From a virus, in the IMG/VR virus record IMGVR_UViG_3300022538_000539, positions 1-64,000 of that record: a stretch of DNA of 64,000 nt, one strand, 5' to 3'. The translations under genes and the position numbers were made by a program. The notes below the pieces were generated by a model. The model saw only the letters and a program-made list of their open reading frames with translations, was not told the origin of the DNA and searched no databases. Shown piece after piece: positions 27,762-62,366 of the stretch. Position 1 is the stretch's first letter. Each line of letters begins with the position of its first letter.

Positions 27762-28208
27762 ATGTCATCAGGAATGTATTTAAGAACAGAAAAACATAAA
27801 GGTAAAAATGCTCCTAATTACAAAGATGGAAGAACACTGAAAAAATATTATTGTACGAACTGTGGAAAAGAATTATCATATTACACTGCTAAAAGATGTC
27901 AAAGTTGTGCTAATAGAAAAAATTTTAGTGGTAAAAATAATCCTAATTGGCAAGGAGGTAATTCATTCAAACCATATTCTCCAAAATTCAATAATAATTT
28001 AAAAGAGAAAATTAGAAACAGAGATAATAAAACTTGTCAATTATGCAATAAAACAGAAAAACAAAATGGTAGAAATTTATCAATTCATCATATAGATTAT
28101 AATAAAAAAAATAGTAATCCAAATAATCTAATAACCTTATGTATAAGTTGCAATTTTAAAGTTAATTATAATAGAAATTATTGGATTAAATATTTTAGAA
28201 AAAAATAA
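27762..28208 (+). CDS. HNH homing endonuclease
   Basis: A 148-residue protein. Residues ~30-50 hold a zinc ribbon (YYCTNCGKEL ... RCQSC). A NUMOD3-type NNPNWQGG segment follows, then the HNH nuclease: CQLC, IHHIDYNKKN and LCISC. The middle closely matches the HNH at 30965-31420 (NNPNWQGG, FKPYSPKFNN), and its N-terminus matches the HNH at 32681-33160 (DGRTLKKYYC), showing domain shuffling among the phage's own HNH genes. It is the last plus-strand gene and converges with the minus-strand block 13 bases away. Confidence 0.75.
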   Translation: MSSGMYLRTEKHKGKNAPNYKDGRTLKKYYCTNCGKELSYYTAKRCQSCANRKNFSGKNNPNWQGGNSFKPYSPKFNNNLKEKIRNRDNKTCQLCNKTEKQNGRNLSIHHIDYNKKNSNPNNLITLCISCNFKVNYNRNYWIKYFRKK

Positions 28209-28846: not shown

Positions 28847-28922
28847 TGGAGCCAGCAGTCGGGTTCGAACCGACGACCTGTTCATTACAAGTGAACTGCT
28901 CTGCCAACTGAGCTACACTGGC
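28847..28922 (-). tRNA. tRNA-Thr(TGT)
   Basis: Acceptor GCCAGTG pairs with TGCTGGC, allowing wobble. The anticodon loop CTTGTAA lies in a GTTCA/TGAAC stem, the T-loop is TTCGAAC, and CCA is encoded. It abuts the next tRNA with no spacer. Confidence 0.9.
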
Positions 28923-28997
28923 TGGAACTGGTGATGGGACTTGAACCCACAAAACTGACTTGGAAGGACAGCATTTTGCCAATTAAATTACACCAGC
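28923..28997 (-). tRNA. tRNA-Gly(TCC)
   Basis: Acceptor GCTGGTG/CACCAGT, anticodon loop CTTCCAA, T-loop TTCAAGT, CCA encoded. The anticodon stem has one T-T mismatch. Confidence 0.85.
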
Positions 28998-29072
28998 TGG
29001 GGTAAGTGGCGAGACTTGAACTCGTATCTCATTGGTTCACAGCCAACACGCATTAACTTATGCTACACTTAC
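28998..29072 (-). tRNA. tRNA-His(GTG)
   Basis: Acceptor GTAAGTG/CACTTAC, anticodon loop CTGTGAA, discriminator C73 as expected for His, CCA encoded. The base before position 1 is C, so the usual G-1 is not encoded. Confidence 0.88.
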
Positions 29073-29073
29073 G

Positions 29074-29147
29074 TGGCAAATCCACAAGGACTCGAACCTT
29101 GAACTTCTGTTTTGGAGACAGATATTTTTCCATTAAACTATGGATTT
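29074..29147 (-). tRNA. tRNA-Trp(CCA)
   Basis: Acceptor AAATCCA/TGGATTT, anticodon loop CTCCAAA, T-loop TTCGAGT, discriminator G and CCA encoded. Anticodon CCA reads only UGG, consistent with UGA being a stop in this genome. Confidence 0.9.
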
Positions 29148-29223
29148 TGGTAACAGAGGAGGGACTTGAACCCCCAACCTTCTGGATGTAAGCCAGACAA
29201 TCTACCATTGATAATACTCTGTT
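29148..29223 (-). tRNA. tRNA-Val(TAC)
   Basis: Acceptor AACAGAG/CTCTGTT, anticodon loop CTTACAT in a TCTGG/CCAGA stem, T-loop TTCAAGT, A73 and CCA encoded. Confidence 0.9.
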
Positions 29224-29297
29224 TGGCTGAGAAGAAAGGATTCGAACCTCTATCAATGGATTCAAAGTCCACTATCCTACCATTAGACGACTTCTCA
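29224..29297 (-). tRNA. tRNA-Gln(TTG)
   Basis: Acceptor TGAGAAG/CTTCTCA, anticodon loop CTTTGAA, discriminator G73, CCA encoded. Upstream on the minus strand its 5' end directly follows a CCA-ended mini-hairpin (29298-29324). Confidence 0.88.
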
Positions 29298-29324
29298 TGG
29301 ATTTAGTTATTATTTAAACTAAAT
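29298..29324 (-). ncRNA. CCA-ended mini-hairpin in the tRNA array
   Basis: On the minus strand ATTTAGTT pairs with AACTAAAT across an 8-base loop and is followed at once by CCA, which abuts the 5' base of tRNA-Gln. The spacing is that of a tRNA 3' end. It may be the relic of a lost tRNA or a deliberate mini-substrate for tRNA enzymes. Confidence 0.45.
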
Positions 29325-29357
29325 TTTTTATTAAACCATAAAATATAATTATCAAAT

Positions 29358-29434
29358 TGGTATTCAGGGTAGGACTCGAACCTACATTAAACAGATTCTA
29401 AGTCTGCTGTGTTTGCCAATTACACCACCTGAAC
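29358..29434 (-). tRNA. tRNA with Leu anticodon TAG, short variable loop
   Basis: Acceptor GTTCAGG/CCTGAAT, D stem GTGT/ACAC, anticodon loop CTTAGAA, T stem GTAGG/CCTAC, A73 and CCA encoded. The variable loop is only about five bases (class I), unlike normal bacterial tRNA-Leu, which has a long variable arm. Confidence 0.85.
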
Positions 29435-29512
29435 TGGTGCTTGAAACAGGATTCGAACCTGTATAAAATGGATTTTGAATCCACTATGTTTGCCTAATTA
29501 CATCATTCAAGC
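29435..29512 (-). tRNA. tRNA with Leu anticodon CAA, short variable loop
   Basis: Acceptor GCTTGAA/TTCAAGC, D stem ATGT/ACAT, anticodon loop TTCAAAA, T-loop TTCGAAT, A73 and CCA encoded. The variable loop is about five bases, so it lacks the class II arm expected for Leu. Confidence 0.85.
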
Positions 29513-29589
29513 TGGTGTACAAGGTCAGATTCGAACTGACAAAAGATGGATTTTAAGTCCATTATGTTTACCAATTACATCACTTGTAC
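29513..29589 (-). tRNA. tRNA with Leu anticodon TAA, short variable loop
   Basis: Acceptor GTACAAG/CTTGTAC, D stem ATGT/ACAT, anticodon loop CTTAAAA in an ATGGA/TCCAT stem, A73 and CCA encoded. The variable loop is about five bases. It is clearly related to the two preceding Leu-anticodon tRNAs. Confidence 0.85.
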
Positions 29590-29666
29590 TGGTAGCGGGA
29601 GTGGGATTCGAACCCACGACCTTCTGGTTATGAGCCAGTTTATCTACCTGACTGATATATCCCGCT
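29590..29666 (-). tRNA. tRNA-Met(CAT), elongator-like
   Basis: Acceptor AGCGGGA/TCCCGCT, anticodon loop CTCATAA, T-loop TTCGAAT, CCA encoded. There is no C1-A72 mismatch and no run of three G-C pairs in the anticodon stem, so it is not an initiator. Lysidine-modified Ile cannot be excluded. Its first base is shared with the neighbouring CCA. Confidence 0.82.
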
Positions 29667-29742
29667 GGTCAGAGTGAAAAGATTTGAACTTTTGACCTCA
29701 TGTTCCCAAAACACGCGTTCTACCAGACTGAACTACACTCTG
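29666..29742 (-). tRNA. tRNA-Pro(TGG)
   Basis: Acceptor CAGAGTG/CACTCTG, anticodon loop TTTGGGA in a CGTGT/ACATG stem, T-loop TTCAAAT, A73 and CCA encoded. Confidence 0.9.
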
Positions 29743-29819
29743 TGGTGGAACGAACAGGACTCGAACCTACATCTTCCTGATTAAAAGTCAGACGCTTTAC
29801 CATATTAAGCTATCGTTCC
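29743..29819 (-). tRNA. tRNA-Lys(TTT)
   Basis: Acceptor GGAACGA/TCGTTCC, anticodon loop CTTTTAA, T-loop TTCGAGT, A73 and CCA encoded. Confidence 0.9.
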
Positions 29820-29822
29820 TAG

Positions 29823-29895
29823 TTGTATTGATGAGATTTGAACTCATATCTTGATGATTAAGAGTCATCTGTTTTACCAATTAAACTACAATACT
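29823..29895 (-). tRNA. tRNA-Lys(CTT)
   Basis: Anticodon loop CTCTTAA in a GATGA/TCATC stem, T-loop TTCAAAT. The acceptor pairs only GTATTG/CAATAC cleanly. The 3' end reads CTA instead of CCA, so it is the only tRNA here without an encoded CCA. It may be slightly decayed. Confidence 0.8.
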
Positions 29896-29971
29896 GGCTG
29901 TGCAGGTAGGATTCGAACCTACATCTTTGGGATTAACAGTCCCACATTTTACCAATTAATACTACTACACA
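29895..29971 (-). tRNA. tRNA-Asn(GTT)
   Basis: Acceptor TGTGTAG/CTGCACA with one G-T pair, anticodon loop CTGTTAA, T-loop TTCGAAT, G73 and CCA encoded. A CCA-ended mini-hairpin lies directly upstream. Confidence 0.88.
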
Positions 29972-29998
29972 TGGATTATAAGTCCTCACGCTTATAAT
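29972..29998 (-). ncRNA. CCA-ended mini-hairpin in the tRNA array
   Basis: On the minus strand ATTATAAG pairs with CTTATAAT across the 8-base loop CGTGAGGA, followed at once by CCA next to the 5' end of tRNA-Asn. A related hairpin without CCA lies at 30007-30024. Confidence 0.45.
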
Positions 29999-30006
29999 AC
30001 TACAAT

Positions 30007-30024
30007 ATAAGTCCCTGTGCTTAT
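30007..30024 (-). ncRNA. Hairpin related to the CCA-ended mini-hairpin
   Basis: ATAAG pairs with CTTAT around the 8-base loop CACAGGGA, similar in position and purine pattern to the loop CGTGAGGA of the neighbouring hairpin. The remaining sequence to 30089 is AT-rich with no gene seen. Confidence 0.3.
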
Positions 30025-30089
30025 CAAAGGCAACCTATATAATTTTATCTCTTATCAAAATTTATGATAATTTTTTATATTAGATATTT

Positions 30090-30178
30090 TGGCGGAAGAG
30101 ACAGGATTCGAACCTGTGTGGGTTTTACCCCAATGGATTAGCAGTCCATCTCGATAAACCTGACTCTGACACTCTTCC
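30090..30178 (-). tRNA. tRNA-Ser(GCT)
   Basis: Acceptor GGAAGAG/CTCTTCC, anticodon loop CTGCTAA, a proper class II variable arm (TGGGG/CCCAC), G73 and CCA encoded. An HNH gene separates it from the next tRNA. Confidence 0.9.
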
Positions 30179-30186
30179 TGGATTAA

Positions 30187-30609
30187 TTATTTCTCCTTCA
30201 ATCCATATTTTCCATCAAACCATTTCAAATAATCATCAATTCCTTGTTTTCCATATTTATAATAAATATAATCATATGCTCTTTGATGTAATAATCCATG
30301 TTTTGAATTTGATAATAATATAATTTCATCATTATTTTCTTTTAAATAAATATGATGCTTACATAATATATTTCTTGCTTTTTCTCTAAATTCAGAATTT
30401 TGCCATTGTTTCTTTGTTGCTATCCTTAAATTTTTTTTATGTTCATCAGTTAATTTTCTACCTGTAAGTGCTTTGCTTATTTTTTTTCTAGTTTTTTCAG
30501 AATATTTTTTAGTTTTTAAATTATGTCCATTAATATACTTATTTCCTAATTTTACAATTTGTCCACATCCACACTTACAATATTTTATTTTAATTTCACA
30601 TAATTTCAT
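30187..30609 (-). CDS. NUMOD3/HNH-type homing endonuclease in the tRNA array
   Basis: A 140-residue basic protein. Residues ~10-20 hold a small Cys cluster (CKCGCG). NUMOD3 DNA-binding repeats follow (SEKTRKKISKALTGRKLTDEHKKNL), then a His-rich nuclease end (LCKHHIYLKENNDEIILLSNSKHGLLH). It sits cleanly between two tRNA genes and does not interrupt either. It ends close to the tRNA-Ser 5' side, after AATCCA. It is related to the HNH at 32681-33160 in the last 60 residues. Confidence 0.75.
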   Translation of the reverse strand: MKLCEIKIKYCKCGCGQIVKLGNKYINGHNLKTKKYSEKTRKKISKALTGRKLTDEHKKNLRIATKKQWQNSEFREKARNILCKHHIYLKENNDEIILLSNSKHGLLHQRAYDYIYYKYGKQGIDDYLKWFDGKYGLKEK

Positions 30610-30642
30610 TTTATTCTCCTAATTGATATAAATATTAAATTC

Positions 30643-30728
30643 TGGTAGACGAGGTAGGATTCGAACCTACGAAGCTCTCAGCAATGGTATATAAGACCAT
30701 CTCCTTTAACCTGCTTGGATACTCGTCC
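30643..30728 (-). tRNA. Class II tRNA with Ile anticodon TAT
   Basis: Acceptor GGACGAG/CTCGTCT, anticodon loop CTTATAT in an ATGGT/ACCAT stem, A73 and CCA encoded. It has a long variable arm of ~13 bases (GCT/AGC stem), which tRNA-Ile never normally has. The body closely resembles the tRNA-Tyr at 31682-31767, so this looks like a Tyr-type body with a changed anticodon. Confidence 0.82.
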
Positions 30729-30817
30729 TGGTAGACAGGATAGGATTTGAACCTATGAAACTTTAATAGTAATGGCATATCAGACCATTCTCTTTGACCA
30801 AACTTGAATACCTGTCC
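30729..30817 (-). tRNA. Class II tRNA with Ile anticodon GAT
   Basis: Acceptor GGACAGG/CCTGTCT, anticodon loop CTGATAT in an ATGGT/GCCAT stem, A73 and CCA encoded, and a ~15-base variable arm with an ACT/AGT stem. With its neighbour it is the only source of Ile anticodons in the set. Confidence 0.82.
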
Positions 30818-30889
30818 TGGAGACAGAGAGGGGAGTCGAACCCCTGTGGATAGTTTTGCAGACTACCTCGATTCCAAATCTACTCTGTC
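30818..30889 (-). tRNA. tRNA-Cys(GCA)
   Basis: Acceptor GACAGAG/CTCTGTC, anticodon loop CTGCAAA, T-loop TTCGACT, CCA encoded. The D arm is short (GAT/ATC around TTGGA). Confidence 0.83.
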
Positions 30890-30965
30890 TGGTGGAGAAA
30901 TTTGGAATTGAACCAAAACCTACAGGTCTTCAACCTATCGTGCAGACCTCTTACACCATTTCTCC
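30890..30965 (-). tRNA. tRNA-Phe(GAA)
   Basis: Acceptor GGAGAAA/TTTCTCC, anticodon loop TTGAAGA in an ATAGG/CCTGT stem, T-loop TTCAATT, A73 and CCA encoded. Its 5' base touches the stop codon of the neighbouring HNH gene. Confidence 0.88.
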
Positions 30966-31420
30966 TATCTTATTTGATTATGACATCTAATACATAAAGT
31001 TAATAAATTATCTAATTTATTATTTTTCTTATTATCATTAATATGATGAACATGCAATTTTTGATTATATTTTTTAATATATTCCTCCTGAGTTATTCCA
31101 CATTTTTGACAAATATGATTATCTCGTTCCCTAATAAATTCTTTTAACTTATTATTAAATTCTGGAGAATAAGGTTCAAATGATTTGCCACCTTGCCAAT
31201 TAGGATTATTTTTACCTCTCATAATTTTTTTAATTGTTTTTCTATATTTAGGATTTTTCCAAACTTGTTCCATACTTTTACTAACACTTATGCTTATATT
31301 TTTCCTATGTTCTTCAGTAAGTTTTTTACCTTTATGTGCTTTACTTATTTTCTTTTTAACTTTTTTAGAAACTATATGTCCTTTAACAAATCTTCCTTTA
31401 TTATTTCTATCTTTGTTCAT
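30965..31420 (-). CDS. NUMOD3-HNH homing endonuclease in the tRNA array
   Basis: A 151-residue protein with NUMOD3-type repeats (KKVKKKISKAHKGKKLTEEHRKN), then NNPNWQGG and a C-terminal HNH nuclease: CQKC, VHHINDNKKNN and LCIRCH. It lies between tRNA-Phe and tRNA-Asp and touches the tRNA-Phe 5' end. It shares its C-terminal half with the HNH at 27762-28208. Confidence 0.8.
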   Translation of the reverse strand: MNKDRNNKGRFVKGHIVSKKVKKKISKAHKGKKLTEEHRKNISISVSKSMEQVWKNPKYRKTIKKIMRGKNNPNWQGGKSFEPYSPEFNNKLKEFIRERDNHICQKCGITQEEYIKKYNQKLHVHHINDNKKNNKLDNLLTLCIRCHNQIR

Positions 31421-31439
31421 TTTTATCCCCCATATTTTT

Positions 31440-31516
31440 TGGCGACACTAACGGGATTTGAACCCGTATCTCTTGCGTGACAGGCAAGTGTCATAACCTG
31501 ATTAGACCATAATGTC
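31440..31516 (-). tRNA. tRNA-Asp(GTC)
   Basis: Acceptor GACATTA/TAGTGTC, anticodon loop CTGTCAC in a CTTGC/GCAAG stem, G73 and CCA encoded. Confidence 0.9.
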
Positions 31517-31591
31517 TGGTAGAACTAGTGAGAATCGAACTCACATCATATGCTTGAAAGGCATATATCCTAACCATTAGACCATAGTTCC
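31517..31591 (-). tRNA. tRNA-Glu(TTC)
   Basis: Acceptor GGAACTA/TAGTTCT, anticodon loop CTTTCAA in a TATGC/GCATA stem, T-loop TTCGATT, A73 and CCA encoded. Confidence 0.9.
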
Positions 31592-31681
31592 TGGCGGAAA
31601 GAGTAGGATTCGAACCTACGGAAGTTTTACCTTCAATAGTTTTCAAGACTATCACAATAAACCTGACTCTGACATCTTTCC
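31592..31681 (-). tRNA. tRNA-Ser(TGA)
   Basis: Acceptor GGAAAGA/TCTTTCC, anticodon loop CTTGAAA in an ATAGT/ACTAT stem, class II variable arm (GAAG/CTTC), G73 and CCA encoded. Confidence 0.9.
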
Positions 31682-31767
31682 TGGTGGAGAGAATAGGATT
31701 TGAACCTACGAACCCATACGAGAGCAGTTTTACAGACTGCCTGCTTTAACCACTTGCATATCTCTCC
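31682..31767 (-). tRNA. tRNA-Tyr(GTA)
   Basis: Acceptor GGAGAGA/TCTCTCC, anticodon loop CTGTAAA in a GCAGT/ACTGC stem, long variable region, A73 and CCA encoded. It is the likely relative of the two Ile-anticodon class II tRNAs. Confidence 0.9.
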
Positions 31768-31844
31768 TGGTACGCCTGGTAGGACTTGAACCTACATCTT
31801 GCGGATTAGAAGTCCACTGTTCTATTCCATTAAACTACAGACGT
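31768..31844 (-). tRNA. tRNA-Arg(TCT)
   Basis: Acceptor ACGTCTG/CAGGCGT with one G-T pair, anticodon loop CTTCTAA in a GTGGA/TCCGC stem, A73 and CCA encoded. Confidence 0.88.
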
Positions 31845-31920
31845 TGGTGGAGATAGAGGGACTTGAACCCACAACTTCAGGGTGCAAACCTAATGTTTTT
31901 CCAATTAAAACTATATCCCC
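31845..31920 (-). tRNA. tRNA-Ala(TGC)
   Basis: Acceptor GGGGATA/TATCTCC, anticodon loop TTTGCAC in a TTAGG/CCTGA stem, A73 and CCA encoded. The G3-U70 pair that marks tRNA-Ala is present. Confidence 0.9.
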
Positions 31921-31999
31921 TGGAGTGCCTGATGAGATTCGAACTCACAATCTATGGGTTCGTAGCCCATTGTTTTATATCCAATTAAACTACAGACAC
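31921..31999 (-). tRNA. tRNA-Arg(ACG)
   Basis: Acceptor GTGTCTG/CAGGCAC, anticodon loop CTACGAA in an ATGGG/CCCAT stem, T-loop TTCGAAT, CCA encoded. A34 would need conversion to inosine by host TadA to read CGC and CGA. It is the first tRNA of the array in transcription order. Confidence 0.9.
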
Positions 32000-32680: not shown

Positions 32681-33160
32681 TTATTTAATTAAATTCAATA
32701 TAGTATCTCTAAACCATATAAGATAATCATCAATCTTACCAATTTCTACTAAATAATTATATGCTTTTACATGTAGTTTTCTATGTTCAGAATTTGTTAA
32801 AAATAAAACTCTCTTATCATCACCATCTAAATCAATATGATGCTTGTGTAATATATCTTTATGTTTTTTTCTAAATTTAGAATTTTGCCATACTTTTTTC
32901 ATAGTTTTACTTTTTTTCTTCTTAACTTCAAATCTATTTCCTACTTCTCTACTTGCACAACTTCTACATCTTTTAGCACCATAAACAATTTCCTTTCTAC
33001 AATCTATACAATAATATTTTTTTAAAGTTCTACCATCAATATAACTTGGATGTTTTATACCATCTTTAAATTCAGTTTCAAATGAATAATGTTTATTCTT
33101 GTGAGCAATTCTTAATTTTTCTTTATGTTCTTCTGTTTGTTTATATCCTTTTTTAGGCAT
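32681..33160 (-). CDS. NUMOD3/HNH-type homing endonuclease
   Basis: A 159-residue protein. The N-terminus MPKKGYKQTEEHKEKLRIAHK is a NUMOD3-like DNA-binding start. Residues ~40-70 hold DGRTLKKYYC, then CRKEI and RCRSC (zinc ribbon). The end has HKHHIDLDGDDKRVLFLTNSEHRKLH, a His-Me-finger-like nuclease region. It lies directly between the 661-residue gene and RNA copies R1/R2. The N-terminal region is shared with the HNH at 27762 and the C-terminal region with the HNH at 30187. Confidence 0.75.
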   Translation of the reverse strand: MPKKGYKQTEEHKEKLRIAHKNKHYSFETEFKDGIKHPSYIDGRTLKKYYCIDCRKEIVYGAKRCRSCASREVGNRFEVKKKKSKTMKKVWQNSKFRKKHKDILHKHHIDLDGDDKRVLFLTNSEHRKLHVKAYNYLVEIGKIDDYLIWFRDTILNLIK

Positions 33161-35876: not shown

Positions 35877-36488
35877 TTAAATATTTTCACTATCACTAAA
35901 TTTAAAATCATCACATATTTCCAGATTTAACTTAGATTTTGCTATATAACCCTCTTTTAATTCAAATTTATTTACTATCATTTTGCAATAGTTTATAAAT
36001 TCTTTATGTGTTCTATTAGATTTAGTTGTATTACATTTGTGACAAATAATCTGAACATTATTCATATTTAATATTTTCTCATTATCAATTCTATCAAGTG
36101 CTGGTGAATTATCTTGTATACCTTTTCCTCTATTATAATTCATTTTCACATTACAATATGTACAATATTTAATATTTTTTGCTAATATTATCAATTCATT
36201 TCTAGAAATATTTACTTGATATTTTCTTTTATGTTTACTTATTGTACTGTTAACCCATAAATAATAAGAATCAGAACTTCTTCCATCTATCCAATTAGGA
36301 TTATTTTCACCACATAATACTATACTTAAATTTCTTTTATGCTCTTCAGTTAATTTTCTACCTTTTAATGTCTTACTTATTTTCTTTTTAGTTTTCTCAG
36401 ACCGATTTTTATTTTTCCAATATTTTGCACTATTCTCACTTAATTTTTTTTTGTGCTCTTCTGTTTGTTTATACCCTTTTTTAGCCAT
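35877..36488 (-). CDS. NUMOD3-HNH homing endonuclease
   Basis: A 203-residue protein. Its N-terminal NUMOD3-type region begins MAKKGYKQTEEHKKKL and continues SEKTKKKISKTLKGRKLTEEHKRN. The nuclease part has a zinc pair (YCTYCNVKMNY), LDRIDNEKILNMNNVQIICHKCNTTK and a basic C-terminus. This is a fuller HNH than the others here. It lies immediately upstream of the pseudoknot array on the same strand. Confidence 0.8.
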   Translation of the reverse strand: MAKKGYKQTEEHKKKLSENSAKYWKNKNRSEKTKKKISKTLKGRKLTEEHKRNLSIVLCGENNPNWIDGRSSDSYYLWVNSTISKHKRKYQVNISRNELIILAKNIKYCTYCNVKMNYNRGKGIQDNSPALDRIDNEKILNMNNVQIICHKCNTTKSNRTHKEFINYCKMIVNKFELKEGYIAKSKLNLEICDDFKFSDSENI

Positions 36489-57224: not shown

Positions 57225-58213
57225 TATATATCCTTAATATATTTAATCCCTTTTTTAATTTCTTCATTTAATGTATTAATTAAATCTTTATTTTTCATAA
57301 TTTCTTTTCTTAATTTTTTAATACCATGATATTTTGTTCCCTTGTATTCATACCATCCAGCTGATTTGCTTTTAATATATCCTAAATCTAAAGCAACTTG
57401 TATATACTGTGGAGCATTATCTATACTACCATCATAATAAAATGGAAAACTACAAGTTTGCTGTGGAGGAGCAACTTTACTTTTAGTTATATCACAAACT
57501 ACATAATGTCCTATTCTTTTTTTCTTGTATTCTATCCATTGACCTCTTTTAACTTTTATCATTATTGTACTAATAAAATCTAATCCTCTACCTCCTGGTC
57601 TTGTATATGGACTGCCATATAATATTCCTATTTTTTCTCTTACTTGATTAATCATAAAAATAATAGTATTTTTATTAACAGCAATAAGTTTTCTAAGTGC
57701 TTTATTCATCATCCTTGCAGCAACACCCATTTGTTGGTCTTCCATTTTGCTTTCTAATTCTACAAGAGGTACTAAACTTGCTATACTATCTAATACAACT
57801 ATTGAAAACATATCTGGTACTACAAGACTTTCCATTATATCTAATGCTTCTTCTCCATAACTTGGTTCACTAATATATAATTCTTTATTATTTACTCCTA
57901 ATTTTGTAGCCCAATTTTTATCATAAGTTTTTTCAGTATCTATAAAAGCACATTTTTCTCCTCTTTTTTGAGCAGCAGCAATAGTTTTAAGAGAAAGTAG
58001 TGTTTTTCCACTATTAAAAGTTCCATATACTTGAATAAGTCTTCCTCTTGGTATTCCACCACCTAATATATAATCAAGTATAGGAATACCAGTACTAACT
58101 ACCTCATACTTCATATCACTTGCTCTCATAAGTACTTTTTTTCCAAACTTTTTATTCAGTACTGTAATTAATTCATCTATATCCATAAGCAATAATTTAC
58201 CAATATCTGACAT
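57224..58213 (-). CDS. recA: RecA-like recombinase
   Basis: A 329-residue RecA. Walker A is GTFNSGKT at residues 64-71; other motifs are IDTEKTYDKNWATKLGVN, VVLDSIASLVPLVELE and FMINQVREKIG. It is slightly shorter than bacterial RecA, missing much of the C-terminal lobe. Its start overlaps the DnaE stop, making a replication/recombination unit. Confidence 0.9.
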   Translation of the reverse strand: MSDIGKLLLMDIDELITVLNKKFGKKVLMRASDMKYEVVSTGIPILDYILGGGIPRGRLIQVYGTFNSGKTLLSLKTIAAAQKRGEKCAFIDTEKTYDKNWATKLGVNNKELYISEPSYGEEALDIMESLVVPDMFSIVVLDSIASLVPLVELESKMEDQQMGVAARMMNKALRKLIAVNKNTIIFMINQVREKIGILYGSPYTRPGGRGLDFISTIMIKVKRGQWIEYKKKRIGHYVVCDITKSKVAPPQQTCSFPFYYDGSIDNAPQYIQVALDLGYIKSKSAGWYEYKGTKYHGIKKLRKEIMKNKDLINTLNEEIKKGIKYIKDI

Positions 58214-61200
58214 TATTTTAACTCCTTTAGTTTCTTTATCTTATTCCCTGCTTTTGAATTAAAAACTAATCCACCCCTATCATTTTTCTCAAGATGCATA
58301 GCATATATTTCTCCTACTTCTAAATATTCTTTATACTTTTTAGTAGCATCAGACCAAAAAATAACATTCTTGGCTATTTCATTTTCATCTGAAAGTTTAA
58401 GAAAAGTCATTATTTTGCCTTTTTTAGTTATCCAAAAATGATAATTCTCTATAACAGTAGCAAAAGAATAACTACTTCTTATAAATACTTTTTTTCTATC
58501 TGATAAAGTTTTAAGATTATATTTTTTAATTATTGTTCTGTATTTATCAAAAAGATTTTCAAAAAGTCTACAATTTTTAATCTTTTTATCTAATACAAAC
58601 ATTTCAGAAGCATATACTCTATCTTTTTCTTTTAAAACTTTTCCTATTATACTTACAGGTTTATTCATACCTTCTTCTAACATCCAAACCTTATATTTTT
58701 CAAATACTTCTGGTTTCATATTGACAGAAATAACTCCTTGTCCATTAGATATACTTAGATTACAATACATCCTTTCTGATTCTTTTGCACTAAATAATGT
58801 ACTACCTTTTACATTTTTTACTGTTTCTTTATATTTTTTTGAATTAATACTCACAATAATACCTGATATAACAACTAAATCTCTTGCACATTCTATTACT
58901 TTTACATAATTTTTTATATAATATTGTTTATAAAAATTACTTAAATTACTAATAAAATTTTGCTCAATCTTTCTCCATTTAGAAAAATTAATTAACTTTT
59001 TGATTACATCAGTAGAATATTCTTCTTTCATTGGTTTTGTATTTGCAACTTCATCTATAATTGTTATTTTCTTTTTTAATAAATCATCTAAATTATTTAA
59101 AGTTTCTATTTCATTTGGAAACCAACATTTAAAAACACCTGCTTTAATTAAATTTTTAATTCTTGCTGAATTTACTGTTCTTCGTTCAATTTTATCTAAA
59201 AAATCTATCCAATCTTTAAAAGTTTGTTTTTCAATAATGTGATTACTTGCTCTATTGCCCATCCCCATGATTTGATTAAAACCTTGTCTAATAGCATTTT
59301 TCTCGATAGAATATTCAATTGTAGATTTATTTATATCAGGTGGTAAAATTTCTATACCATATCTATTGCACTCTTGTAACAAGTTTTGTTCATTCTTTTT
59401 ATCTACTATTAAATTGCTAATTAAAAATTCTAATGGATAATAAACTTTTAAATACATATTAATATATCCTAACAATGAATAAGCAACAGCATGTGCTTTA
59501 TTAAAAGTCCAACTTCCATAATGCATATATCCTCTGTACATATTGCTTGCAGTTATTCTTGGAATACCCTTCTTAACAGCATTTTCAATAAATTTATCTT
59601 GCTTATCCAAAAAATATTCTGCACCTAAAGTTTTACTTATTGCCTGTCTAATTTGCGATATTTCTATCCAATTAAAATTGCCTATATTAGATAAAATTTC
59701 CATTAGTTGTTCTTGAAAAATTACTTCACCATAAGTAGATTTTAAAATATGTTCTATATCAGGATGTTCATATTTAATTTTTTTTCTACCTTTTTGTACA
59801 TCTATATATCTTTTAGTAGCACCAGAACCAAGAGTTCCAGGTCTAGAAATAGCATTAGCATGTGCTAAATGTTCAAATTTAGTGATTTCCATATTATTAC
59901 ATAATTTACGAAAAGCATATGTATCAAATTGAAAAATACCAATAGTATTTGCTTTATCAAATTCTTTTATTATTTTTTTATCATCTAACTTTAAATTATA
60001 TACATCTATATCCTTATTGTGTCTTTTCTTAATTAAATCTAAAGTTTTTTGTATAATAGTAAGATTAGATAATCCTAATACATCGAGTTTAAGAAGATTT
60101 AATTCTCCTTCTTTACTATCATTCTTATCAAATGGTATTGCTGTTCCTAAATTAGTTCTTATTAAACCACAATATTCAGTTAAATCTTGTAGCGAAATTA
60201 TTAAACCAGCAGCATGTACACCATGATGTCGTACTCGTCCTTCTAATTTTTGTGCTACTTTTATTACTTGTGGATATTTATTGGCAAATATTTTTGCTTC
60301 TTTAAATGTTTTAATACTATCTTCTATTGTAAATGTCTGATGTGTTTTTGCGAAAGACCCTTGTAAAATATATTTAGTGATTTTATTTGCTTCTTTAAGC
60401 GGAACATCAAATACTCTACACACATCTTTTAATACAGCTCTACCTTTTAAAAGAGAATGCGTAATCATATGTGCTACATGATTTTTGCCATATTTTCTTT
60501 TTAAATATTCTTTAATTTCATGTCTTCGGTTATCTTGAAAATCTATGTCAATATCAGGCAAATCATCTCTACTTGGTGAAATAAATCTAAAAAACAATAA
60601 ATTATGTTTTATTGGGTCAACATTTGTTATATTTAAGCAATAAGCAAGTAATGAACTTGCAACAGAACCACGTGCTGTACCTACCATAATTATTTGTGAT
60701 TTTGCCCACTTAATTAAATCCCAGACAATTAAAAAATATTTTTCAAACTGTAAACTTGTTATTAAATCATATTCTTCTTTAAGTCGTTTTAAATATTCCT
60801 TTTTTTGATGCAAATTTTTGTTTTTTAAACCCTGAAAAGATAAATACCAAAGCCATTCTTTATAATTATTAAATTTTTTTGGTAAAAATAAACTAGGAAG
60901 CATTTTATGTATGCTAGGTATTTTAAAATCTATATTGATTTTATTGGCAATTTTTAAAGTATTATTCATTGCTTCTTTAATAATTTTATCACTTATTTTA
61001 GAATGATATTTTTTACAAGTATCAATCATTTCATCTGCTGTTTTTAAATATATTCCTTCCAAATCAAAAATTGTTCTATTTTTATCATAGTATTTTTCTT
61101 TATATCCTATACAATGCATAACATCTCTTACCCATGAATCATTTTGATTAAGATAATGTATATCATTTGTTAGCACAAGAGGAAGTTTATATCTTTTACT

Positions 61201-61821
61201 TAATTCTATTAAAGATAAATTAACCATTCTTTGTGCATCCATATTATGTGGTTGTAATTCTAAATAATAATCATCTTTAAATAATTTTTTCATAAATTTA
61301 ATATGCTTATCTATCTTAACAAAATTATTATTCTGTATATTATAACCTAAAAAACCATCTCCACAACCAGACAAAGCAATTAAATTACTAGTTTGAATTT
61401 GATTAAGATAATCCCAAGAAATTCTTGGTTTATAATAAAAATGATTTTCATCATTAGCATAACTAATTAATTTGCAAAGTTCTTTAAAACCCTCATAATT
61501 TTTTGTAAGTAATACAAGATGATATACTGTTTGTTTTATAGTCCTAAATCCTTGTTTTTTCTCTTCATCTACAACTTGAATGCCTTTTGTATTAGCATCT
61601 TGAACTACATAAAATTCACAACCAAGAATTGGTTTAATATTTTTTTCTTTACAATTTTTATAAAATCTCCATAATCCAGAAATACTAGCATGGTCTGTAA
61701 GAGCAAGTGCTTTAAAACCTAATTGATGTGCTTTTTCAACTAATTCTTTGGGTTTAGGAATAGCATCGAATAAACTAAAATGTGAGTGACAATGTAAATG
61801 TACAAAATCTTTATTTTTCAT
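58213..61821 (-). CDS. dnaE: DNA polymerase III alpha subunit (DnaE-type)
   Basis: About 1200 residues. The N-terminal PHP domain is complete (FVHLHCHSHFSLFDAIPKP, LTDHASISGLWRFY, ILGCEFYV). Catalytic palm motifs are GTARGSVASSLLAYCL and PDIDIDFQDNRR around residues 393-445. A C-terminal OB-like region contains VVISGIIVSIN. It belongs to the bacterial-type C-family, so the phage uses its own replicase. ATG 61821 is preferred over an in-frame TTG at 61857 that lacks a good SD. Confidence 0.9.
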   Translation of the reverse strand: MKNKDFVHLHCHSHFSLFDAIPKPKELVEKAHQLGFKALALTDHASISGLWRFYKNCKEKNIKPILGCEFYVVQDANTKGIQVVDEEKKQGFRTIKQTVYHLVLLTKNYEGFKELCKLISYANDENHFYYKPRISWDYLNQIQTSNLIALSGCGDGFLGYNIQNNNFVKIDKHIKFMKKLFKDDYYLELQPHNMDAQRMVNLSLIELSKRYKLPLVLTNDIHYLNQNDSWVRDVMHCIGYKEKYYDKNRTIFDLEGIYLKTADEMIDTCKKYHSKISDKIIKEAMNNTLKIANKINIDFKIPSIHKMLPSLFLPKKFNNYKEWLWYLSFQGLKNKNLHQKKEYLKRLKEEYDLITSLQFEKYFLIVWDLIKWAKSQIIMVGTARGSVASSLLAYCLNITNVDPIKHNLLFFRFISPSRDDLPDIDIDFQDNRRHEIKEYLKRKYGKNHVAHMITHSLLKGRAVLKDVCRVFDVPLKEANKITKYILQGSFAKTHQTFTIEDSIKTFKEAKIFANKYPQVIKVAQKLEGRVRHHGVHAAGLIISLQDLTEYCGLIRTNLGTAIPFDKNDSKEGELNLLKLDVLGLSNLTIIQKTLDLIKKRHNKDIDVYNLKLDDKKIIKEFDKANTIGIFQFDTYAFRKLCNNMEITKFEHLAHANAISRPGTLGSGATKRYIDVQKGRKKIKYEHPDIEHILKSTYGEVIFQEQLMEILSNIGNFNWIEISQIRQAISKTLGAEYFLDKQDKFIENAVKKGIPRITASNMYRGYMHYGSWTFNKAHAVAYSLLGYINMYLKVYYPLEFLISNLIVDKKNEQNLLQECNRYGIEILPPDINKSTIEYSIEKNAIRQGFNQIMGMGNRASNHIIEKQTFKDWIDFLDKIERRTVNSARIKNLIKAGVFKCWFPNEIETLNNLDDLLKKKITIIDEVANTKPMKEEYSTDVIKKLINFSKWRKIEQNFISNLSNFYKQYYIKNYVKVIECARDLVVISGIIVSINSKKYKETVKNVKGSTLFSAKESERMYCNLSISNGQGVISVNMKPEVFEKYKVWMLEEGMNKPVSIIGKVLKEKDRVYASEMFVLDKKIKNCRLFENLFDKYRTIIKKYNLKTLSDRKKVFIRSSYSFATVIENYHFWITKKGKIMTFLKLSDENEIAKNVIFWSDATKKYKEYLEVGEIYAMHLEKNDRGGLVFNSKAGNKIKKLKELK

Positions 61822-61844
61822 TATTTCATATTCCAATGTTTTTT

Positions 61845-62366
61845 TTACCCTGTCCAAATATATTTTTTAAAAGTTCCATTTTTTATTTCTTTTAAGTGTT
61901 GTTTTAATGCTTCAATTCCATTAGCATAACCTATACAAGCATGAGCCATCATTAAGTTTAACTTTCTATACATTACATTAGAATAAGCAAGTATAGGAGT
62001 TTTAACTTGATAAGCAATTCCCATTTCAAATGCAACACTACAATCCCAATCATCTATTATAGCCAATACAAAATCTGCATTTTTTACTTCTTTTATATTT
62101 CTATTAAATGCTTTTTGACGTTCTTTGAAAGAATCAAAATTTACAATAAGATTATCATCTTTTGGACTAAATACTTCAAATCCAAAATGTTCACATAATA
62201 ATTTAAGAGTATCTACTAACTTCTGTTGCTTGTCATTAAAAAATGGAGCAACAAGATAAATTCTTTTTTTACTTTCCTTTTTTACTTCTATATTCATACC
62301 ACTAAATAAATCTTTTGTTTTTATTTTTTTCTTTTTTTCTGTTAATACAATATTTTCTTTATTCAT
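61845..62366 (-). CDS. Nucleoside 2-deoxyribosyltransferase-like protein
   Basis: A 173-residue protein. The core reads RIYLVAPFFNDKQQKLVDTL, VFSPKD, VKNADFVLAIIDDWDCSVAFEMGIAYQVKTPILAYS, matching the nucleoside 2-deoxyribosyltransferase fold (Glu nucleophile in FEMG). It could remodel nucleotide pools or act as a signalling-nucleotide hydrolase. The N-terminal ~30 residues are an added basic extension. SD AAAGGAG. Confidence 0.75.
   Translation of the reverse strand: MNKENIVLTEKKKKIKTKDLFSGMNIEVKKESKKRIYLVAPFFNDKQQKLVDTLKLLCEHFGFEVFSPKDDNLIVNFDSFKERQKAFNRNIKEVKNADFVLAIIDDWDCSVAFEMGIAYQVKTPILAYSNVMYRKLNLMMAHACIGYANGIEALKQHLKEIKNGTFKKYIWTG

Follow-up and report, generated by a model that had tools for sequence, protein, structure and literature searches.

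The stretch of DNA analysed here (the window) spans bases 1-64000 of a virus record 115,399 bases long and carries a tRNA array in which Leu and Ile tRNAs have exchanged shapes. The features that matter are the following:

28847-31999, minus strand: tRNA array, 26 tRNAs for all 20 amino acids
29358-29434, minus strand: tRNA-Leu(TAG), class I, 77 nt, variable loop TTAAT, G1-U72
29435-29512, minus strand: tRNA-Leu(CAA), class I, 78 nt, variable loop TTTAT, G1-C72
29513-29589, minus strand: tRNA-Leu(TAA), class I, 77 nt, variable loop CTTTT
30643-30728, minus strand: tRNA-Ile(TAT), class II, 86 nt, arm T-GCT-GAG-AGC-TTC (13 nt)
30729-30817, minus strand: tRNA-Ile(GAT), class II, 89 nt, arm T-ACT-ATTAA-AGT-TTC (15 nt)
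31682-31767, minus strand: tRNA-Tyr(GTA), class II, G1-C72, arm ending TTC, the comparison body for the Ile pair

ARAGORN and Rfam RF00005 agree on the array. Nearly all of its 26 tRNAs encode CCA and most genes are placed end to end; searching the record over its full 115,399 bases turned up no others. The tRNA-Lys(CTT) call at 29822-29895 has an odd 3' end, AAC instead of CCA, and shares one base with the tRNA-Asn call. HNH/NUMOD3 homing-endonuclease-like genes lie within or beside the array (27762-28208, 30965-31420 and 35877-36488), and the genes at 30187-30609 and 32681-33160, which have no Pfam match, look like them by eye. No close relative of the window phage emerged from searches with its terminase. 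Nor was there a match to PF00133 (tRNA-synt_1, the Ile, Leu, Val and Met synthetase family) in the 115-kb record, possibly a genome fragment; therefore charging of the Leu and Ile tRNAs needs host enzymes, unless a missing part of the genome encodes them.

Leucine tRNAs without a long arm

Bacterial tRNA-Leu is normally class II, with a long variable arm. The sequence-only reading had given all three window Leu tRNAs variable loops of about five bases, and the analysis bears this out, with 5 nt in each. It had also taken the shapes as a sign of anticodon switching. We cut out the variable region, masked the anticodon and compared the remaining tRNA bodies with about 2,060-2,100 viral tRNAs, a procedure whose leave-one-out accuracy for Leu is 42/43. 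The nearest bodies of the window Leu tRNAs are Leu, mostly class II (7, 8 and 10 of the top 12), and the body closest of all to Leu(TAA) belongs to L496, a class II tRNA-Leu(TAA) from another phage. Leu-type bodies with mostly class II neighbours indicate that, judged by sequence, these are ordinary tRNA-Leu bodies from which the long arm has been deleted, and do not support the anticodon switch proposed for them. The next-best matches within the window (Gln, Asn and Arg) were also considered as sources of switched Leu tRNAs, and were ruled out against about 2,100 viral tRNAs.

Such a loss agrees with what is known of recognition. For E. coli LeuRS, A73 is important and the anticodon and long variable arm are not required, while the essential elements include A15-U48, G18G19 and A20a (PMC9976931). 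All of these, along with A14, are present in 3/3 window Leu tRNAs. Thus the window tRNAs have the body and recognition elements of bacterial tRNA-Leu, and differ from it in having 5-nt loops where it has a long arm. The same elements persist in viral class I Leu tRNAs generally, with A73 in 171/172, A15-U48 in 146/172 and A20a in 139/172; among class I non-Leu viral tRNAs A20a occurs in 58/1198.

The earlier reading had proposed to examine related phages for the same architecture; for Leu, it is widespread among phages. In an isotype-unselected viral sample, drawn by a T-arm pattern, with class set by length (at least 81 nt being class II) and distinct sequences counted regardless of kinship, the class I share is 24/61 for Leu, 0/45 for Ser and 2/20 for Tyr (Leu versus Ser, p=1.7e-7). 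When the viral collection was scanned with a class I tRNA-Leu(TAA) pattern, ARAGORN confirmed such a tRNA in nearly all loci among the matches listed; across 120 of these loci, Leu(TAA) was short in at least 116 cases and long in 3. Named phages have it too: tRNAs annotated as tRNA-Leu, 74-79 nt and without a long arm, are found in Escherichia phage T5_ev212, Acinetobacter phage Acibel004, Vibrio phage 1.208.B and Rhodococcus phage Trina, and Citrobacter phage Moogle has three, the same CUA/UUG/UUA trio as the window. Where Ile tRNAs are present in the stretches read of the named phages they are ordinary class I, unlike those of the window. For the Moogle-like phage Sf14, published isotype scores assign all three Leu tRNAs to Leu, while 14/26 of its tRNAs have an isotype inconsistent with the anticodon (PMC12482277). 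Animal mitochondrial tRNA-Leu is likewise recognised by its LeuRS without a long arm (PMC9976931), as proposed here, but it is of separate origin and served by an organellar synthetase. We found no literature description of class I tRNA-Leu in phages, in a search whose coverage excluded most subscription journals. Many phages thus share the Leu half of the swap, which is consistent with what LeuRS is known to recognise.

A host with the same shapes was also looked for. Scanning 595 bacterial genomes with a class I Leu(TAA) pattern gave 15 matches, and scanning 299 with one for class II Ile(GAT) gave a single match; ARAGORN recognised none of them as a tRNA of the kind sought. These scans used exact patterns in phyla picked from DnaE neighbours, and constrain the host weakly, as they may miss the actual one.

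Isoleucine tRNAs on a Tyr/Ser-type body

The Ile(TAT) and Ile(GAT) tRNAs are, as first read, the only two with Ile anticodons among the 26, and their arms of 13 and 15 nt are paired, with a 3-bp stem in both. Alternative folding had been raised as a possible objection; in the Rfam alignment both tRNAs are cloverleaves of the standard form whose variable region holds an added insertion. Under unconstrained ViennaRNA folding only Leu CAA and Leu TAA reach a minimum that resembles a cloverleaf; the others, the phage tRNA-Tyr included, do not, and hence this folding does not discriminate. Both Ile tRNAs have G15-C48, A73, G1-U72, C4-G69, A37 and U38. The resemblance to the phage's own tRNA-Tyr also held up, in that the nearest bodies within the window are each other, then Tyr and Ser; the arms end in TTC as in the window tRNA-Tyr, and G15-C48 is shared with Tyr and Ser. 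In the viral comparison they lie nearest to class II bodies, namely those of the L623 Ile(GAT), of Tyr and of Ser, and these neighbours fail to separate Tyr from Ser as the source. An anticodon switch, not supported for Leu, is thus plausible for the Ile pair, whose sequences combine a Tyr/Ser-type body with an Ile anticodon. In mitochondrial alloacceptor remolding an anticodon change likewise gives a tRNA a new identity (PMC4783518); the window case differs in lying in a phage and in having a class II body taken to Ile, if that was the direction.

How rare is this architecture? In the unselected viral sample class II accounts for 3/43 Ile tRNAs, all TAT and differently shaped, and for 0/26 of those with GAT. 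Targeted scans nevertheless show class II tRNA-Ile again in other phages rich in tRNAs: class II Ile(GAT) with Tyr-like arms was found in the tRNA-rich records L138, L212, L588, L620, L623, L626, L662 and L672, and the stretches read of G001 and G006 contain no other Ile tRNA. When the scan was narrowed to the same anticodon stem it gave three loci, including L623; ARAGORN calls a class II Ile(TAT) in L814 and no tRNA in L813. The Ile half of the swap is a rarer variant of tRNA architecture, and it most likely continues to serve isoleucine.

These findings raise the possibility that class II Ile is an old phage isotype, passed on both by descent and by exchange between phages rich in tRNAs, instead of having switched recently from the tRNA-Tyr of the window phage. 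Ile(TAT) has its nearest body in L623, a class II Ile(GAT) whose record has no terminase match to the window phage, and several similar tRNAs sit in other records. Yet the pair resembles Tyr and Ser too, the sample of similar tRNAs is small, and tRNA trees are poorly resolved, the argument resting on nearest neighbours. We hold this refinement of the main view to be a real prospect, at somewhat under even chances.

Other long-armed tRNAs occur in the viral collection. A separate family of class II tRNA(TAT), 89-96 nt long (L035, L072, L091, L094, L538, L683, L684, L687, L725, L730, L731, L756 and others), has one named-phage match, annotated tRNA-Ile. The variable arm contains [CT]AGAT in 19/26 distinct sequences of this family and in 2 of about 380 other class II tRNAs; in 18 of the 19 it forms a loop of 7 nt, YAGATNN, with CAGATAA and CAGATTA as frequent forms. 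A stem of 3-5 bp closes this loop, which resembles the tRNA-Ile(GAT) anticodon loop CTGATAA. Single Ser-like class II tRNAs have a GAT anticodon in viral contigs L157, L228, L596, L667, L584, L594, L645, L648 and L652, and TAT in L336, L716, L699 and L758; several of these Ser-like tRNAs carry G73, by which charging by SerRS is conceivable. Long arms are also seen on Asn, Met, Trp, Glu, Gln, Val, Lys, Cys and Thr tRNAs of tRNA-rich phages (L787-L796, L815 and L816).

Charging and codon meaning

A question arises, which synthetase charges the Ile pair? The identity rules applied here are those of E. coli, and may differ in the phage's host. Among bacterial tRNA-Ile traits the pair has the GAT/TAT anticodon, A37 and A73, and lacks the class I architecture. 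The bacterial tRNA-Tyr traits G34, U35, A36 and G1-C72 are not found together in either tRNA (GAT/TAT, with A35 and G1-U72); G1-C72 is the first pair in 25/26 viral class II Tyr, and G1-U72 in 7/12 viral class I Ile(TAT). Where bacterial tRNA-Ser has G73, both have A73, and where LeuRS elements would be A15-U48 and A20a, they have G15-C48 and U or C at position 20a. Given that the elements for LeuRS (A15-U48 and A20a), SerRS (G73) and TyrRS (U35) are all absent, elimination favours IleRS, which would be the likeliest enzyme for the pair. A38 is important for E. coli IleRS, and both window Ile tRNAs have U38; bacteria, moreover, do not usually read AUA with a UAU anticodon. Minor determinants of E. 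coli IleRS are C4-G69, U12-G23 and C29-G41 (PMC9976931). C4-G69 is present in both tRNAs. Against IleRS, U38 and G29-C41 in both and C12-G23 in Ile(TAT) depart from E. coli tRNA-Ile, on a manual reading of positions 12, 29, 37 and 38.

The unexpected charging by Tyr-, Ser- or Leu-tRNA synthetase suggested earlier, here in the form of mischarging that causes low-level mistranslation, draws on the Tyr/Ser-like body and on U38 with the inverted 29-41 pair, which may weaken recognition by IleRS. It also has a precedent in the nematode nev-tRNA-Ile(UAU), a long-arm tRNA with an isoleucine UAU anticodon, like the window pair, that is leucylated in vitro (PMC4300185). The window pair differs from it in its Tyr/Ser-like bodies and its lack of LeuRS elements, as judged by the bacterial elements, from which those of the nematode enzyme may differ. 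Opposing mischarging are A73 in place of G73, A35 in place of U35, G15-C48, the missing A20a and U72 in place of C72, and wrong residues would land at very common codons. With the main determinants of each enzyme missing, and with Ile and Leu codons at Ile and Leu positions in DnaE (below), the suggestion is not supported, and we regard mischarging as improbable. Slightly less probable still is that partial charging of these tRNAs with another amino acid creates programmed ambiguity at Ile codons during infection.

U38 in the Ile anticodon loops bears on a further explanation, that the altered shapes were selected as protection from host factors that read the variable region, either anticodon nucleases or toxins that modify tRNA. 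Phage tRNAs are reported to evade tRNA-targeting defences by anticodon-loop mutations (PMC10264068). Arm loss, however, tracks a synthetase that ignores the arm (Leu, not Ser), and drift with synthetase constraint suffices to account for it; we consider selection by nucleases unlikely, if less so than mischarging.

The meaning of the codons was read from one long gene:

58213-61857, minus strand: DNA polymerase III alpha (DnaE), used to test Leu/Ile codon meaning

DnaE, its I and L residues masked, served as the query in an alignment with 80 bacterial homologues. Its Leu codons score +75.0 nats for Leu and -30.1 for Ile, and its Ile codons +46.9 for Ile against -84.1 for Leu, -177.9 for Tyr and -159.3 for Ser; for ATA codons alone, Ile scores only +5.6 and Leu -34.1. 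Columns with at least 85% Ile have ATT, ATA, ATC and one ATG, and those with at least 85% Leu have TTA or CTT in 14/19. The exchanged shapes, along with tRNAs for every one of the 20 amino acids, in principle enough for a private code, might have meant that anticodon-switched tRNAs swap the code during infection, so that Leu codons would yield Ile and vice versa. The DnaE test strongly rejects this, with Leu codons on Leu and Ile codons on Ile; the Leu bodies are Leu and the Ile bodies lack LeuRS elements. There is no Leu/Ile code swap in DnaE, and we give such a swap in the phage practically no credence. The test reflects selection on codons, which host tRNAs may also read, and reports what the codons mean in phage proteins, not what the tRNAs carry.

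Taken together, the evidence points to Leu and Ile tRNAs that both still deliver their normal amino acids, as far as charging can be judged from sequence. We think it probable that a single account covers both halves, arm-less true tRNA-Leu alongside Tyr/Ser-derived Ile tRNAs, both decoding normally. The phage carries a full tRNA set, whose members would retain only what host synthetases require. The dispensable variable arm would have been deleted from true tRNA-Leu bodies, which host LeuRS may charge via A73 and the D/T-loop hinge elements that are still present. A class II Tyr/Ser-type tRNA, to judge from body similarity, would have become the Ile tRNAs by anticodon change to GAT and TAT; IleRS would charge them via the anticodon, A37 and A73, and the observed absence of LeuRS elements, G73 and U35, together with U72, would keep LeuRS, SerRS and TyrRS off. 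Decoding normally, the Leu and Ile tRNAs would aid translation in this AT-rich phage, where ATA is a heavily used codon (374/762 Ile codons in 13 ORFs).

The division into class I and class II is usually treated as fixed for each tRNA family, and in phages it is not. There Leu often loses its arm and Ser almost never does, while Ile, Asn, Met and others sometimes carry one, as if nature had run an experiment on the actual requirements of each bacterial synthetase. Leu versus Ser is the one case checked with a clear rule, and it agrees with the known behaviour of E. coli LeuRS. For phage annotation, the variable arm is a poor guide to isotype.
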